From Deltaproteobacteria bacterium GWC2_42_11 (GTDB lineage: Bacteria > Desulfobacterota > GWC2-55-46 > UBA9637 > GWC2-42-11): a stretch of DNA of 49,210 nucleotides. The stretch spans positions 592 through 49,801 of the forward strand of contig MGPS01000053.1 of the NCBI GenBank assembly GCA_001797495.1, in the 5' to 3' direction. Below are positions 42,305 to 49,210 of the stretch, piece by piece. Under the pieces are notes generated by a model. It was given only the letters and a program-made list of their open reading frames with translations. It made no database searches and had not been told where the DNA came from. The position numbers and the translations under genes were made by a program. The number at the start of each line of letters is the position of its first letter. The first letter of the stretch is position 1.

Positions 42305-42766
42305 TTATATTGAGTACATTAAACCATGGGGGAGTTCTTTTTCAATCCCAAGTAACTCTCCTTTTTTGCAAAGATCCTGTATGGAGACAGAATCAAGGAA
42401 CTTTGTTATCCTCTGACCTGTCTCTTCCCAGACTGACCTTGTAACACACTTCTCAAGCAGGTCGCACTTCTTAATCTTTTTTGCAGTGGTACAAAATACA
42501 AGTTGCAATGAGCCCTCTGTTGCTCGCAGGATGTCTCCCACTGTAATCTCTTTGGGCATCTTTGCAAGGTAATATCCACCGTGGGGACCCCTCTTGCTCT
42601 TTAACACACCTGTCTTCTTCAGTCTCTGGAATATCTGCTCAAGGTAGCGGGGCGAAATCTTCTGCCTTTTCGATATATCCTTTACCTGAACAGGCTGGCC
42701 GTCGTAATGATATGCTATGTCAAATATCGCCCTAAGACCATAAAGACTCCTTGTTGAAAGCCTCAT
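42305..42766 (-). CDS. Rrf2 family transcriptional regulator
   Basis: The 153-residue product has the Rrf2 winged helix (MRLSTRSLYGLRAIFDIAYH, RYLEQIFQRLKKTGVLKSKRGPHGGY). Three cysteines in FCTTAKKIKKCDLLEKC are spaced as in IscR-like [Fe-S]-binding members, so it may sense iron-sulfur, redox or NO status; this is inferred. GGAG precedes ATG. Twin palindromes in its own promoter (42781-42822) suggest autoregulation. It is 21 bases upstream of efp and may share transcripts with it. Confidence 0.9.
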   Translation of the reverse strand: MRLSTRSLYGLRAIFDIAYHYDGQPVQVKDISKRQKISPRYLEQIFQRLKKTGVLKSKRGPHGGYYLAKMPKEITVGDILRATEGSLQLVFCTTAKKIKKCDLLEKCVTRSVWEETGQRITKFLDSVSIQDLCKKGELLGIEKELPHGLMYSI

Positions 42767-42780
42767 AAACTACTCCAAAA

Positions 42781-42831
42781 ATATGCATATTTATTAAAGA
42801 TAATATTAAAATATATGCATATTCTTGTCAA
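42781..42831 (-). promoter_or_regulatory. Rrf2 promoter with two ATATGCATAT operators
   Basis: On the minus strand, -35 TTGACA and -10 TAATAT are exactly 17 bases apart. One perfect palindrome ATATGCATAT (42813-42822) lies in the spacer and a second (42781-42790) lies just after the start region. Their centres are 32 bases apart, about three helical turns. Confidence 0.75.
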
Positions 42832-42846
42832 GAATTTTGTTGCCTT

Positions 42847-44682
42847 TTAACGCCCCTGTTCAGCCAGTGCAAGGGGGTCGCTCACCTTTATAATCGTCCT
42901 CCCCATAATGATGCCCCCCCTGCTCACGATTATTTCTGTCTTACCCGAACCGCCGTCAAATCTTACAGTCTTTGCAGCCCCTTCGTTTATCCTGCCGTTA
43001 TTAAGGTTTATCTTAATACCGATATTTCCTGAGACGTTTGTTTTTACATCTACAATCTCAAGTATCTCCTTTACCGCAGCAGTAAACGATTCACCGTTTG
43101 AATACCAGCGTTTAATACCATTTCCGTGTCTTATAACAATGTAATCCATCCTGGGTTCTTCAATTGTGACCATTATCTCGCCGATTTTTTTATCCCTGTA
43201 ATTTACAACAATTGGATACTGTAATCCCTTGCCGTCTTTTGAATATTTTATCCACAAATCATTTGCTGTATTTATAGAATATCCCCTGTCCTCACCCCTG
43301 TTGTTTGTCTTATCACCGACAAAACCGAGAAAATTTATCTTAATGTCCTGTGATGCGGCACTATCTGCTATTACATCAATGAGTTTTATTACATCACCTC
43401 TTACGACTTTCAATTCCTCACCGTTTGACAGAACCTGTTTTCTGCCGTTTATCTCAACCACTAGATATCTTACCACGGGGATACCGCTCTTCTTATCAGC
43501 AAATTCTGACGCATTAGTAATAATATCCACTTCTCCGCATTTGAACCCGTCTTTTTTAACAACAATCCTCGTCGGTTCATTAATTTCAAAATCCTTCTGG
43601 AAATCGTTTGCTGTGCCTATACCCGAAAAATCCACGATCAAACCCCTTGCATAGTTTGCCTCAACATGCGAGACCCTAACCCTGTCGCCATTTTTTACAT
43701 TAAGAGATTCACCGTTCTGTACAACAAATTCCTTTTTCCCGTTTATATTTATCAGCAGATACTTGAGCCTTGGTGATTCAAGAGAAATTTTCGGGTATTC
43801 AGGTACTATATTAAATTTCTCCATAAATGCGTTAACAACCATTGTCTGAAACCTTACCTTTGTCCCAATGTCCTTTATCTCTTTTGAGGTTTCTATGCCA
43901 AAGGCAGGTATCTCGCGGGTTGAAACTGCATAATATGTTGCTGACAGCCTCTGTTCCGAGTGCTTTGTGTCCCTTTCAAATGTCTTGTGGTTATTGAATT
44001 TGAAATGGTATTCAGGGTTCTCTATATTTTTGTTTACAGCCTCTGCTATCCTCCTTGCAAGTTCACCAAGCCTTAACTCCATCCCTGATTTTTTTGAAGT
44101 ATAAACATCTGCATCTGCTATAATAGACTGTCCAAACCGCTTCGGGTTTCTTAAATCACTTACCCATCTCTCTGAAAAAAATCCAGACCCCTCATGCAGG
44201 TTAAGGAGGTAATCACTTTCCCCTATAAGGTCTTTCAGTATCTCCACAACCCTGTCCTCATAATACCCCCTTGTATTAGGGGACTGGAACCTGCGGTTCA
44301 TATCGTTATTGATAAGTCTTTTATGCTCTATGATTGAAAGGAAATTTGCCCGCGGCACAACAATGAGGTTCCCTTTCTTAAGCGCCATATCTGCATAGAG
44401 GTCAGCGGCTATATAGCCCCCTGGCTCATCTCCCTGTATCCCGCCGATTATCATCATTGTCTTACCTTTTTCTGCACCGTATATTTTATAAACATTTAAC
44501 TCGTAGTCTGTATTTTTGAAATAAACATCGTGGATTGTCTGGGCAATTGCAAATGCAGGAGAAAGAGGAGTAAGCAACAGGAAGCAGGCAGTAATAAGCA
44601 GTAGGCAGTAGGCAGTTGTGCCAACTGGAAACTGGCAACTGCCAATTATCTTTTCTTGACCCTTGACCCTATAACATCTCAT
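42847..44682 (-). CDS. M99/M14-type carboxypeptidase, Csd4-like (peptidoglycan shape enzyme)
   Basis: The 611-residue product has a signal peptide (hydrophobic about residues 20-46), then a zinc carboxypeptidase fold: GGIQGDEPGG with Gln and Glu as ligands, RRF region, and His in LLNLHEGSGFF. Later residues form repeated beta domains (LLININGKKEFVVQNGESL and two similar copies, ending near 600). Helicobacter Csd4 trims peptidoglycan tripeptides to dipeptides and uses Gln instead of His as a zinc ligand; the same replacement is seen here. It overlaps the L,D-transpeptidase-like gene (ATGA). The signal-peptide segment is encoded by a repeat shared with ybeY. Confidence 0.8.
   Translation of the reverse strand: MRCYRVKGQEKIIGSCQFPVGTTAYCLLLITACFLLLTPLSPAFAIAQTIHDVYFKNTDYELNVYKIYGAEKGKTMMIIGGIQGDEPGGYIAADLYADMALKKGNLIVVPRANFLSIIEHKRLINNDMNRRFQSPNTRGYYEDRVVEILKDLIGESDYLLNLHEGSGFFSERWVSDLRNPKRFGQSIIADADVYTSKKSGMELRLGELARRIAEAVNKNIENPEYHFKFNNHKTFERDTKHSEQRLSATYYAVSTREIPAFGIETSKEIKDIGTKVRFQTMVVNAFMEKFNIVPEYPKISLESPRLKYLLININGKKEFVVQNGESLNVKNGDRVRVSHVEANYARGLIVDFSGIGTANDFQKDFEINEPTRIVVKKDGFKCGEVDIITNASEFADKKSGIPVVRYLVVEINGRKQVLSNGEELKVVRGDVIKLIDVIADSAASQDIKINFLGFVGDKTNNRGEDRGYSINTANDLWIKYSKDGKGLQYPIVVNYRDKKIGEIMVTIEEPRMDYIVIRHGNGIKRWYSNGESFTAAVKEILEIVDVKTNVSGNIGIKINLNNGRINEGAAKTVRFDGGSGKTEIIVSRGGIIMGRTIIKVSDPLALAEQGR
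44583..44650. repeat. Interspersed repeat encoding the signal peptide of the M99 peptidase
   Basis: GCAGTAG-type heptamers (CAGTAGGCAGTAGGCAG) run into GGCAGTTGTGCCAACTGG and a further AACTGGCAACTGCCAAT. The second part matches the ybeY insert at 32611-32630. On the minus strand it encodes the SCQFPVGTTAYCLLLITACF part of the signal peptide. Confidence 0.75.
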
Positions 44683-46220
44683 AAAGAAAACTCCTTTTCC
44701 ATGATAATCTTACCTGTCAATGAATAGACAATGACCTTTATGGATTTAAACCCTTTATTCTGTCCAAAGCTTGCTTCAACAACCTTAAACCTTCTTATAG
44801 AATACCAGTCGCCTTTTTTGAAGTCCTTCGGAACACCCTTTGAAAGTTCCATTGCAGGGAAAGATGCCAATGCCTTTTTATTATCATCGAATGCAATTAC
44901 AGCAAGTCTGCCCTGCAGTTTATGCTCCTCACCTTTTTTATTAACTAGTCTAAATCTTGCCTTAAATCCTTTTTTAGCATATGCCTCGAATTCCTCTATA
45001 GCAATATTTAAAGCCTTTGAATTGTCACCTACTGTCTTCTGCTTCTCAGGTATACTGACTGCTAATTCCTGTCCTGTTTCAGCAGATTCCTGTTTTGGTC
45101 CCTTTCCCTTTTTCTGAACTCTGTCCTCTGGTGTCTGTATCTTTGCTTCAGCCTCTGCTGTTTGTCCTCCATTAACATTCACCGCTACCCTAACAGGCAG
45201 TTTTTCGGAGAGTTTTTCTGCTATCCCTGCAGGGTCTTCGGGGGGTATAGCAGTCCATTCCTCACCGATAACCTTTATTCCGTCATCAGTATACTCAAGA
45301 TAGAGCCTCTTTATACCTGTATTATTTGTGCCCTCGCCTGTATATGTCTGTATAAACGAAACAATAAAGCCGTCATCGCTCTGTCCCAATATCTTGATCT
45401 CTTTTATTGAAACCTTCCGCGGTAACCCTATTTTATTTAAAGATGCCTTGTATCTCTTCCATGCATCCCAATCCATGCCCCTTGACTTAAATGCCTTAGA
45501 ATAACTTTCAATATATTCATCAAGGTTTTTGTTTTCCCAGCTCTCCCGCCATTTATTTAAAAACTCCCTTATTCTCTGGTCCTCCTCTTTTACAAACTCC
45601 AGTGGGACAAACTCGACCTTATCAACTATTATTACAGGTGTTGTCTGGAGTTTTATATATCTGGCAATATCCAGCACATCTTCATTCACTGCAACCAGGC
45701 AGCCCTTTGTATCAAATGGTTTTATTGGTCTCGTGGGCTGGTCAGTGGCATGGAGCCAGATACCGTTGCCTGTCTTTCCATGCTGTCTATCAAAGAAATT
45801 TGGATAATTTATTGGTATTGCCATCAAACCATATTGCGGCAATAGTTCCTTATCTTCTTTAACATGGGTGAAAAAATAAACACCCTCCGGTGTCTTTTTA
45901 TCACCTATATGCGATTTGTTCCCATTATTTTGACCTGTGGTAATCTGGTAGGTCTTTACAAGGTTATACGAACTGTCAATGAGGTAAAGTTTCTGAGACG
46001 ATTTTTCTGCAAGTAGGACAAAGGTATTTTCCCCCCACCTGCCGATATTTATCAACTGTTTTGGAACCTCAAGCCTTGCAAGCGCATATGTAAGAGAAGT
46101 ATCCTTCAATCCATTTCTGTCAGCATCAGGGTCTGTTACACTTGAATCTTTATTTGCGGCCGAAAGGCATGGAAGCAGCAAAAAGTATGTGCTTAAGATT
46201 ATAAGTAAAAAATTCCTCAA
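44679..46220 (-). CDS. L,D-transpeptidase/L,D-carboxypeptidase (YkuD domain), Csd6-like
   Basis: The 513-residue product has a signal peptide (residues 1-21), then a YkuD domain (about 60-205) with the catalytic His and Cys in IWLHATDQPTRPIKPFDTKGC. An NTF2-like domain follows (about 218-325, REFLNKWRESWENKNLDEYI). YkuD plus NTF2-like is the build of Helicobacter Csd6, which trims peptidoglycan stem peptides. A low-complexity, Lys/Gln-rich linker and a beta-rich C-terminal part (400-513) complete it. It starts at TTG 46220, seven bases after AAGGAGG. It lies 28 bases after bactofilin and overlaps the M99 gene. Confidence 0.82.
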   Translation of the reverse strand: MRNFLLIILSTYFLLLPCLSAANKDSSVTDPDADRNGLKDTSLTYALARLEVPKQLINIGRWGENTFVLLAEKSSQKLYLIDSSYNLVKTYQITTGQNNGNKSHIGDKKTPEGVYFFTHVKEDKELLPQYGLMAIPINYPNFFDRQHGKTGNGIWLHATDQPTRPIKPFDTKGCLVAVNEDVLDIARYIKLQTTPVIIVDKVEFVPLEFVKEEDQRIREFLNKWRESWENKNLDEYIESYSKAFKSRGMDWDAWKRYKASLNKIGLPRKVSIKEIKILGQSDDGFIVSFIQTYTGEGTNNTGIKRLYLEYTDDGIKVIGEEWTAIPPEDPAGIAEKLSEKLPVRVAVNVNGGQTAEAEAKIQTPEDRVQKKGKGPKQESAETGQELAVSIPEKQKTVGDNSKALNIAIEEFEAYAKKGFKARFRLVNKKGEEHKLQGRLAVIAFDDNKKALASFPAMELSKGVPKDFKKGDWYSIRRFKVVEASFGQNKGFKSIKVIVYSLTGKIIMEKEFSL

Positions 46221-46247
46221 CAGATAACCTCCTTGTGCTCCTCTTCC

Positions 46248-46646
46248 TTACACATTTTTCCCGTGCAGGGTAACATCTTCACCCTTGGATTTCATTATGC
46301 ATGTTCCCTCAAATATAACACCCTCTTCTATTACAATATTCTGCGTCTTTATATTGCCGTATATATGGGCAGGTGATTTGAGTTCCACCTTTGTCTTTGC
46401 CTCAATATCACCTTTTATCTCCCCGCTTATAATGGCAGAGCCGACTGTTATTACAGCCTCTATTACCGCACCTTCACCGATTATAAGGAATCCCTCTGCA
46501 TCTATTTCCCCTTTGAAATCCCCGTCTATCCTGACAGAGCCGTCAAAACTCATTCTCCCGTCAATACTTACACCCTTGCCAATAAAGCCAGTCATCTCTG
46601 CTGCTATTGCATTTTCCTTTGCCTTACCTTTTCCAAACCCAAACAT
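46248..46646 (-). CDS. Bactofilin (polymer-forming cytoskeletal protein)
   Basis: The 132-residue product is a beta-helix of short repeats (GVSIDGRMSFDGSVRIDGDFKGEIDA, GEIKGDIEAKTKVELKSPAHIYGNI) with flexible ends. This is the bactofilin DUF583 pattern. Bactofilins polymerise without nucleotide and place peptidoglycan enzymes at curved or polar sites. It heads an operon with two peptidoglycan peptidases, which points to cell-shape control. AAGGAGG precedes ATG. Confidence 0.92.
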   Translation of the reverse strand: MFGFGKGKAKENAIAAEMTGFIGKGVSIDGRMSFDGSVRIDGDFKGEIDAEGFLIIGEGAVIEAVITVGSAIISGEIKGDIEAKTKVELKSPAHIYGNIKTQNIVIEEGVIFEGTCIMKSKGEDVTLHGKNV

Positions 46647-46853
46647 ATAGACCTCCTTAATCAGAGTGATAGTTTTACCACTATTTAATTTCCAGAACTT
46701 TTTATACCCCTTATAATTTCAAAAAAATTATAAATTATAATTATATAGGAATTATAGGGACACTTCCCGTATTCTCCATTTCCGAAAAATTGGGAAAATT
46801 GTCCTATTTCCTCTATTTCCATTTCCATTGACCCCCTTTTCCCCATAAAAAAC
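46647..46853. other. Intergenic stretch upstream of bactofilin
   Basis: No gene. AT-rich, with TATAAATTATAATTATA near 46730. Repeat-like pieces (TAGGGACACTTCCCG at 46757 and TTGTCCTATTTCC at 46799) resemble degraded REP arms. The promoter for the bactofilin operon should lie here, but I cannot pick one with confidence. Confidence 0.35.
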
Positions 46854-47777
46854 CTATAACCGTCCGATTAAATACTCCACATTATATTTCAACAACCCAT
46901 ATGCCTCGGATGTTAGGTGTTTATCTTTCTGTGCCTCCACTTCATTTATAAAGGCATTCAGGATGTTTTTGGCTGCATTCTTATTGCCTTGCTCAATCTT
47001 CTTTTTTGCATTTTCAAGTTTTGCATCGAGGCTCTGCTCTATGCCCTGATTAGTTATCCAGCCTAATGAAAATGCTTCGTGCTTCATGGAAATTATGTAG
47101 TCTATAAAGCTCACGGGCTTAAAATCAGCAGGCGGGGCTGTGGGGCCGAGGGTTTTAGTTTGATAGATTAGGCTGTCTTCAAGTTGCTTCGTGAGTTCTA
47201 TGTTTTCCCAGTACTGCTCAGGCAAATTGTCTATGTCAATATCAGGTTCTATCTTAACATCTCTTATTCCTGGCAACCCATACGATGTCAATATAAAGCC
47301 TCCAAATGTTTGATTAGGCAAGATTAGGCTTTGTTCACTACCGCCCCACGAGACTGTTCCCATAACTGTAATGGCTGTAATCCAACCAGGAAATGGCTGA
47401 CCAAAAGGTGGCTGAGCACCAACCGGTATTACAGGTTTTTGTAATACTTCCTTTATCCTTGCTACCTCTTCTTCAAAACTTCTAATTATCATCCCCCCTT
47501 GAGCTTTCACCCCTCTTCGAATCACAAGACCTGCGGAATTTAATTCTTGACTGTTCAATGGTTTCGTAATATCAATCTCAAAATGAAATATTTTTCCATC
47601 GTTAATAGGTGGGTTGAAGATTGAGTAATTATATGTATAGATACCCGTTGTGCTGTCTAACATTACCAGCCCTGTAACCTTGACATCTTTAAGCGGCGAC
47701 GGAATCTGGGCAAAAGCTAACGAGGTTGAAAAGATAATTCCAATTAAAACAATAAAAATAACTCTCTTATTTATCAT
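46854..47777 (-). CDS. Secreted hypothetical protein with C-terminal FIMAH domain
   Basis: The 307-residue product has a signal peptide (VIFIVLIGIIFSTSLAFA) and a beta-rich middle I do not recognise. The C-terminus (about 250-307; LENAKKKIEQGNKNAAKNIL, then HLTSEAYGLLKYNVEYLI) matches the helical FIMAH domain. That domain is found at the end of many secreted or cell-surface proteins, and its role is unclear. ATG 47777 sits eight bases after AAGGAGG; an ATG two codons earlier is too close. It follows the MopE-type gene directly, and both are exported. Confidence 0.75.
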   Translation of the reverse strand: MINKRVIFIVLIGIIFSTSLAFAQIPSPLKDVKVTGLVMLDSTTGIYTYNYSIFNPPINDGKIFHFEIDITKPLNSQELNSAGLVIRRGVKAQGGMIIRSFEEEVARIKEVLQKPVIPVGAQPPFGQPFPGWITAITVMGTVSWGGSEQSLILPNQTFGGFILTSYGLPGIRDVKIEPDIDIDNLPEQYWENIELTKQLEDSLIYQTKTLGPTAPPADFKPVSFIDYIISMKHEAFSLGWITNQGIEQSLDAKLENAKKKIEQGNKNAAKNILNAFINEVEAQKDKHLTSEAYGLLKYNVEYLIGRL

Positions 47778-47789
47778 TGCCATACCTCC

Positions 47790-49210
47790 TTACTGTGGGA
47801 ATTCACAGTGTATTGTGGATTCTCGAACAAGATGCCCACCATAATCCTTGCAAATCTCTCTTATTGCGATCCTATCCACCCTTATCCACCCGTTCTGACT
47901 TTGGGCAGTTCTATCAATATCCACACCAGTTCCTTTTCTGTGGCTGGAATGTCCTCCATTCGGAGCATTTAAACAGGTATCGGTTGGATTATATGTCCCG
48001 CATATGTCAAACATCCCACCATCTGGCAGGCTCATATCATTTATCCCAAGCGTTGCATCAAACTGCTGATAATAATCCGCTGCCATGTTGCCTATATTCC
48101 CGATTGTAGTATATGTCCCGTAATGATTCACAGGATGGTTTGTTGTTTGACCTGTCAGCCTCCAGGCGTCTGATTCTCCCATTGAACCTAATCCCGGCAC
48201 CCTAACCTTAATCTTTGCCTCGCTTTCATCTCCTCCTGTAACTGTTGCTATTATCCTTTCCTCACCACCAACCTCTGAGCTTGTGTATTTTACCACTGCA
48301 GAGTTCTCTGCATTACTCAAGTTAACGCTGCTTATTACATTGCCGCTACTGTCAGTTATCTTCCCTTTTGGCCTTGTGCCGCTGTGGCTGTGGCCGCCTG
48401 AGTTTGCTACAGGCTCAACACTCAGATTTACAGTGCATCCCTCTGGAGGCGCTGGATTGGTTAAAGACACGGTGATTATTGAGGTGGTTTGACTGCTTCC
48501 TGCATTCTTTGGCCAGACTGCATTTGGATTTGCAGTTATAGATATTTCACATTTCAAACACCCCTCATCTGTCTGTCCATTACAATTATTGTCTATCCCA
48601 TCTCCGCAAACCTCTTGTGCAGATGGGTTTACAGCAGGATTATTATCATTGCAGTCCCCTGATGTGGATGTAAGTTCAGAGGCTAACTTGTAACCAGAAG
48701 GTCTTTCGCATTGGGTAAGGGTTGTGCCGTTTGAGTATCCGTCATTGTCTGTGTCTTTATACCAAATTGTAGCAGGATTTATATTTGGGTCGCTGTCATT
48801 GCAGTCATTGCCTTGCGGGCAGTTTGCAGAATTATAGGTATAATATCCATCACCATCTCCATCAACACACTGCTCCTCTCCGGGACATCTCCATTCGTAA
48901 GTTTCAGTTCTACCTCGTACATGGTTTATATAAACTGTGTCAGGGAAGTTACACGGAGGTCCCGCAGATATACACGCACCCGCATCAGTAACATATATAA
49001 AATCAGTACAAGGAGGAAAATAACTACAACCATAACCATACCATGACATCGCATAAATATCTATTCTAATAATTCCATTTATAGTTGAGGAGTATGGATA
49101 TGGTGAACCTTCATAATAATCATGACAATATTGTCCTAGAGTACAGGATTGGGTTTGACAATATAAATCAACAGTACAATAAAAGGGATTTTGTGATGGT
49201 ATATTAGATA
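47790..49210 (-). CDS. Secreted protein with MopE-type metal-binding repeats and a C-terminal M15-like domain, 5' end cut by the window
   Basis: The frame stays open to the window edge, so the start is missing; an ATG at 49049 is internal. In order: a Cys-rich stretch, calcium- or copper-binding repeats of the MopE type (DGDGDGYYT...NDCNDSDPNINP, CGDGIDNNCNGQTDEGC), a beta-sandwich, and a C-terminal domain with GGHSSHRKGTGVDID and a late IHCEFP. The spacing of His, Asp and His resembles zinc ligands of M15/M74-type peptidoglycan peptidases, but I cannot confirm a catalytic site. It is probably surface-bound or secreted. Confidence 0.7.
   Translation of the reverse strand, partial: SNIPSQNPFYCTVDLYCQTQSCTLGQYCHDYYEGSPYPYSSTINGIIRIDIYAMSWYGYGCSYFPPCTDFIYVTDAGACISAGPPCNFPDTVYINHVRGRTETYEWRCPGEEQCVDGDGDGYYTYNSANCPQGNDCNDSDPNINPATIWYKDTDNDGYSNGTTLTQCERPSGYKLASELTSTSGDCNDNNPAVNPSAQEVCGDGIDNNCNGQTDEGCLKCEISITANPNAVWPKNAGSSQTTSIITVSLTNPAPPEGCTVNLSVEPVANSGGHSHSGTRPKGKITDSSGNVISSVNLSNAENSAVVKYTSSEVGGEERIIATVTGGDESEAKIKVRVPGLGSMGESDAWRLTGQTTNHPVNHYGTYTTIGNIGNMAADYYQQFDATLGINDMSLPDGGMFDICGTYNPTDTCLNAPNGGHSSHRKGTGVDIDRTAQSQNGWIRVDRIAIREICKDYGGHLVRESTIHCEFPQ

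Follow-up and report, generated by a model that had tools for sequence, protein, structure and literature searches.

Structure and probable role of the operon

The 49,210-nucleotide stretch of DNA analysed here, referred to below as the window, comes from Deltaproteobacteria bacterium GWC2_42_11 (assembly GCA_001797495.1, contig MGPS01000053.1, positions 592 to 49,801) and encodes a bactofilin, a YkuD+NTF2 enzyme and an M99 carboxypeptidase in three neighbouring genes of the minus strand. The trio is one version of a widespread gene cluster and probably constitutes an operon of the curvature type, that is, a bactofilin-guided two-step peptide-trimming module that bends the cells. Most relatives carry a fourth gene, encoding a putative membrane adaptor (protein X), the C-terminal domain of which is fused to the YkuD protein in the window. 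The parts of this system are known, whereas the way in which they are combined, how widely the combination occurs, the adaptor-like X and the fusion in the window appear undescribed; a literature search, with most subscription journals outside its scope, found nothing relevant on a link between M99 and bactofilin or on bactofilin work in Desulfo- bacteria.

The first gene of the operon (46248..46646) encodes a bactofilin of 132 amino acids (aa) with short termini around the polymer domain (aa 21-116, PF04519 E=1.9e-28), which was the single bactofilin match in a profile search of the genome. It is followed by the genes of a 513-aa protein with YkuD, NTF2-like and X-type C-terminal domains (44679..46220; PF03734 E=7e-16, Cds6_C PF24125 E=1.2e-18) and of a 611-aa zinc carboxypeptidase of the Csd4/Pgp1 type with a signal peptide (M99, 42847..44682; PF17033 E=2.9e-30). 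All three families exceed the curated Pfam cut-offs, all three reading frames are intact, and a purine-rich ribosome site precedes every start: AAGGAGG before the ATG of the bactofilin gene, AAGGAGG before the TTG of the YkuD gene and AAAGGAG before the ATG of the M99 gene. A sequence-only reading of the window had proposed these families in a codirectional row with a 28-base and an overlapping junction; Pfam bears out the families, and the row is further supported by the ribosome sites and by synteny in relatives. The YkuD and M99 genes do overlap, by the four bases ATGA (44682-44679), but the gap between the bactofilin and YkuD genes was counted as 27 bases (46247-46221), not 28.

Polymers of the bactofilin beneath the inner membrane probably mark out one side of the cell, and in the periplasm the YkuD-NTF2 enzyme probably removes D-Ala4 from uncrosslinked stem peptides (tetra to tri), after which M99 would remove meso-diaminopimelic acid (tri to di). 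Such trimming would alter crosslinking on one face and bend a rod that elongates by means of MreB, a protein present in the window genome. This order of action is proposed on the model of Csd6 and Csd4. The same enzyme pair, for which tetra-to-tri followed by tri-to-di trimming is expected, occurs as Csd6/Csd4 in Helicobacter and Pgp2/Pgp1 in Campylobacter; the members of these pairs are not known to be encoded in one operon in either genus.

The trimming enzymes

The 513-aa protein was predicted to be an L,D-carboxypeptidase of the Csd6/Pgp2/Bd1075 group. Its YkuD domain (aa 68-198; 45627..46019, minus strand) carries the catalytic His157 and Cys174, and H157, G173 and C174 are invariant in an alignment of 26 relatives; the NTF2-like domain follows (aa 217-321; 45258..45572, minus strand). 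By sequence, the closest solved structure was that of Bd1075 from Bdellovibrio bacteriovorus (7o21, E=4e-45), ahead of Csd6 (4xzz, E=1.2e-21) and Pgp2 (4e-17), and 7o21 was also the top Foldseek match of the predicted model (E=8e-25, TMt 0.79). Bd1075 trims stem peptides and makes Bdellovibrio curved, and its NTF2 domain targets it to the outer curve, which requires W303, a residue that other LD-carboxypeptidases are reported to lack (PMC8938487). Pairwise alignment placed a Tyr within the NTF2-like domain of the window enzyme at the position of Y274 and a Trp near its end at that of W303 (GEEW against EEWA in Bd1075), the Bd1075 numbering being derived from a string match of E302-W303-A304. 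A Trp also ends the last NTF2 domain in most relatives, and the report of this targeting residue as Bdellovibrio-specific is called into question. The window enzyme differs from Bd1075 in being encoded together with a bactofilin and an M99 and in its fusion to the C-terminal domain of X. Most Desulfobacterota YkuD proteins of the operon (L041-L149) carry two tandem NTF2 domains, compared with one in Csd6, Pgp2 and Bd1075.

The catalytic domain of the M99 protein (aa 69-292; 43807..44478, minus strand) was assigned by Pfam, and the protein matched the Csd4 structures 4q6m and 4wck (E~1e-24). Residues Q83, E86, H163 and E264 are invariant in all 13 aligned relatives; from their counterparts in Csd4, the first three are presumably zinc ligands and E264 the catalytic Glu. 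The Gln aligns with that of Csd4, in place of which the deposited variant chain 4wcm has His, and the unusual zinc-ligand Gln of Csd4 is thus retained. The C-terminal region (aa ~300-611; 42850..43785, minus strand) had no Pfam match, is longer than in Csd4 and Pgp1, and by eye may consist of about three related beta-type repeats of ~95 aa. Two imperfect 24-nucleotide direct repeats (44566-44613) lie in the part of the gene coding for the N-terminus with the signal peptide and seem to lengthen the protein in comparison with related ones. A second, solitary type of M99 (L035-L040), which fits the Pfam model more closely (E to 1e-90), was found outside the operon in other families.

These enzymes might also edit peptidoglycan to an end that has nothing to do with curvature, for instance the adjustment of crosslinks for stress resistance, the anchoring of outer-membrane proteins or recycling, with the bactofilin only localising them. 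YkuD enzymes include those that attach and detach Braun lipoprotein, the window protein matches the LdtF/DpaA model weakly (E=7e-9; 35 bits, where the cut-off is 365), and the window genome is non-flagellate by search. We nevertheless regard this explanation as unlikely: the full-length NTF2-bearing relatives in the PDB (Bd1075, Csd6 and Pgp2) are all shape enzymes, as are the characterised M99 enzymes, and both carriers of the cluster with a recorded shape are vibrioid (see below).

Conservation and spread of the cluster

The conservation of the cluster was assessed in an even draw of 247 genomes of the phylum, from which 40 M99 loci were taken, and in 76 further loci from named genomes, which were fetched as close M99 relatives and are hence not random. 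A same-strand YkuD-NTF2 gene neighbours M99 in 29 of the 40 sample loci, X in 21 and bactofilin in 12; the corresponding counts for the 76 named loci are 56, 64 and 50, giving 85, 85 and 62 in all 116 non-duplicate loci. No bactofilin or YkuD neighbour on the opposite strand was found among the 116, and the juxtaposition of these genes is far beyond chance. Cds6_C was present in 47 of the 48 sampled genomes with M99 above the cut-off (Fisher p=6e-35, a value that ignores kinship) and in 17 further genomes without M99. A search for the trio in related genomes, as suggested by the sequence-only reading, thus shows that the cluster recurs, and the synteny rules out the trio being a lone accident or a recent invention. 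Its claim of a compact operon outside Campylobacterota is likewise supported; Bdellovibrio had already provided an example of the enzyme type beyond that phylum.

The usual gene order in Desulfobacterota is YkuD-NTF2, X, M99 and bactofilin, and one or more bactofilin genes come first in Nitrospirota metagenome-assembled genomes (MAGs) of the magnetotactic type and in the order to which the window belongs. In one genome of this order (G252), the four genes are coupled by a 6-base gap and by 4- and 1-base overlaps. A quick M99 tree placed the window's order beside Nitrospirota loci (SH-aLRT 96), and M99, Cds6_C and X were absent from seven sampled genomes of other orders of the class. It is likely on these grounds that the genes were transferred between the lineages, in one direction or the other. 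Several MAGs of Gemmatimonadales and Glassbacteria (L118, L129, L130 and L137) contain an M99 of the operon type, in the fetched flanks of which neither YkuD nor X nor bactofilin was recognised.

Protein X, a candidate membrane adaptor

In the Helicobacter pylori literature searched, no link of Csd4 or Csd6 to CcmA was stated. Protein X is a candidate for such a link between a cytoplasmic bactofilin and enzymes that trim in the periplasm. Its gene lies between those of YkuD and M99 in most loci, and the product of 210-370 aa has a short cytoplasmic segment (e.g. TITLIYFKDKSGKALTLKLR) and a single transmembrane helix, beyond which lie a coiled coil and the C-terminal domain. Membership of a known family was ruled out, as no Pfam or NCBIfam family matched above the cut-off. 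In the AlphaFold2 model (40 rows) of the X of L033, which belongs to the window's order, a beta-hairpin (residues 4-11 and 17-23) runs straight into one long helix (24-86), followed by a linker and a beta sandwich (mean pLDDT 89.4, pTM 0.54). The Foldseek matches of the sandwich were weak beta-sandwiches (best 2e-4, TMq about 0.3); it was therefore dropped as a functional clue, and no function is read from it.

In layout (hairpin, transmembrane helix, coiled coil), the modelled front half of X resembles the front of LmdC, an M23 peptidase with a conserved cytoplasmic hairpin that binds bactofilin, and bactofilin in turn confines LmdC to a single side of the cell (PMC10945521). A profile of the LmdC hairpin was built from the segments preceding the transmembrane helix in 14 LmdC-like proteins of the phylum, with 108 unrelated transmembrane proteins as decoys, from which the X of L063 and LmdC-type M23 genes had been taken out after topping the first run. 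The median score was 3.6 bits for X and -1.1 bits for the decoys (p=2e-27, with related proteins treated as independent); 43 of the 81 X segments scored above the best decoy, and X also scored above shuffled X. The full LmdC profile matched one complete X (E=1.8e-6), and the cluster itself includes an LmdC-type M23 gene in five loci of Nitrospirota as well as in G039. On the strength of the profile scores, the whole-protein match and these M23 genes, the hairpins of X and LmdC are likely homologous, and by analogy X would bind bactofilin through its hairpin, with its periplasmic beta domain positioning the trimming enzymes.

In the LmdC-BacA systems of Hyphomonas and Rhodospirillum, a bactofilin and a periplasmic wall enzyme are likewise encoded in an operon, but X has a beta domain where LmdC has M23, and the enzymes are secreted as proteins of their own. 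The combination of a bactofilin with a single-pass adaptor also recalls the CcmA/Csd5/Csd7/Csd1/2 complex of H. pylori, in which the short cytoplasmic N-terminus of Csd5 binds CcmA (PMC9448923). The likeness of X to Csd5 is one of layout; Csd5 differs in having a periplasmic SH3 domain. We consider it an evenly balanced proposition that X represents a novel family of membrane-spanning adaptors for bactofilin, in which an LmdC-type hairpin couples the filaments to Csd6- and Csd4-type enzymes, and thus a further kind of module, common in Desulfobacterota and Nitrospirota, the adaptor having been taken apart in the lineage of the window, with the docking domain fused to the enzyme.

One family of genomes (f24; G019, G057, G093, G122, G150, G175, G199, G222) has short X-like proteins of ~210-230 aa but no M99 and, in most cases, no Cds6_C. 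In some genomes with the solitary M99 type, an X-like gene adjoins a separate Cds6_C gene (G109:C14, G138:C11 and G190:C5).

Fusion of the X domain to YkuD in the window

The periplasmic beta domain at the C-terminus of the window YkuD protein (aa ~403-513; 44682..45014, minus strand) is homologous to the C-terminal domain of X, as judged from the X profile match in the window genome (E=8e-30), a domain scan and alignment; its modelled strands span aa 406-512 at low confidence. A profile search for a separate X in the window genome returned only this domain and chance matches to transmembrane and coiled-coil segments, so that the hairpin adaptor present in most relatives is, apart from its C-terminal domain, absent from the window genome. 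In the same order, four genomes (G054, G252, G253 and G254) have the fused domain on YkuD with a separate X next to it, and the window genome (G000), one of the same family (G247, its contig starting inside the YkuD gene) and G147 have the fusion without a separate X. Since the fusion occurs both with and without a separate X, the order probably had it from its ancestor onwards, and the separate X was probably lost at least twice, or regained. The periplasmic domain would have been copied onto the YkuD C-terminus before the gene disappeared, which would make the enzyme and its docking domain one polypeptide, and this move suggests that X and YkuD act together.

The contact with bactofilin in the window organism may be made by another hairpin protein or may have been lost. 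No M23 peptidase gene adjoins the bactofilin gene in the window operon; the candidate for such a hairpin protein is the one LmdC-like M23 peptidase of the genome, which has a HFNIFIVPEDHSGIKRFKFP hairpin and whose gene, on a different contig, neighbours a secA-like gene. The trio had also been proposed as a minimal shape module, which is doubtful, as most relatives have the fourth gene, some add an LmdC-type M23, and the window YkuD itself includes the X domain.

The absence of a separate X from the three genomes by profile search, together with the lack of M99 in four of the 11 genomes of the order (seven have it), might indicate that the system is degenerating and the operon on its way out in the window species. 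We find this very improbable, given the intact frames, the conserved catalytic residues and ribosome sites and the retention of the X domain as a fusion; moreover, two of the four that lack M99 reach a completeness of only 62-82%.

Cell shape

Two carriers of the cluster have a recorded shape. Desulfocarbo indianensis SCBM, which is vibrio-shaped (PMC4559730), has the full four-gene operon in the order YkuD-NTF2, X, M99 and bactofilin (L123), and the vibrioid Ca. Magnetocorallium paracelense XS-1 (PMC10278575) has an LmdC-type M23 gene, two bactofilin genes, YkuD, X and M99 in succession (L076). Close homologues of Csd4 are reported to be confined to species with curved or helical cells (PMC3310797). 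Along with the curving of Bdellovibrio by Bd1075, these data make the curvature part of the earlier proposal likely, and a curved cell is predicted for the uncultured window organism. Helical shape specifically, which had been offered as an alternative to a curved one, is unsupported, because the twist of H. pylori runs through CcmA and the M23 proteins Csd1 and Csd2, a network separate from the curvature network in which Csd4 acts (PMC3310797).

Curvature is not the only role of bactofilins: together with LmdC, they govern the formation of stalks and buds in Hyphomonas (PMC10945521). A function of the operon in rod diameter, stalks or poles instead of curvature is, however, improbable, as its enzymes are the Csd6/Csd4 pair, linked to curvature in H. 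pylori and, in the case of YkuD, in Bdellovibrio, and the carriers with a recorded shape are vibrioid.

Several observations weigh against the operon being a curvature module. The carriers of recorded shape amount to two data points, both from outside the window's order, and M99 stands alone in 11 of the 40 sample loci. YkuD-M99 is carried by MAGs assigned to Syntrophus (L111 and L121), a genus whose cultured members are rods. A search for flagellar rod proteins in the window genome found none, and the advantage of curvature in swimming therefore does not apply. Without X, the link to bactofilin in the window is putative, and the hairpin similarity by which X was connected to LmdC is short, besides the kinship that its p-value disregards. 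Curvature remains the probable role of the operon, and the cluster might serve as a genomic marker of curved cells for uncultured sulfate reducers and magnetotactic Nitrospirota. Carriers such as D. indianensis are organisms in which the link could be tested.

Neighbouring features

The AT-rich intergenic region ahead of the operon (46647..46853, minus strand) contains a promoter-like site, TGGAGA-16-TATAAT, at 46778-46751, in a scan that overall did not exceed chance. Directly upstream, on the same strand (46854-49049), two proteins were predicted, one with a FIMAH domain and the other with a metal-binding motif of the MopE type. The next gene downstream (42766-42305), 80 bases off, encodes an Rrf2 regulator and was left out of the operon as defined here; it has a TTGACA promoter-like site of its own, which lies with palindromic motifs of the ATGCATAT type at 42766-42846, ahead of the gene, and this arrangement is possibly autoregulatory.

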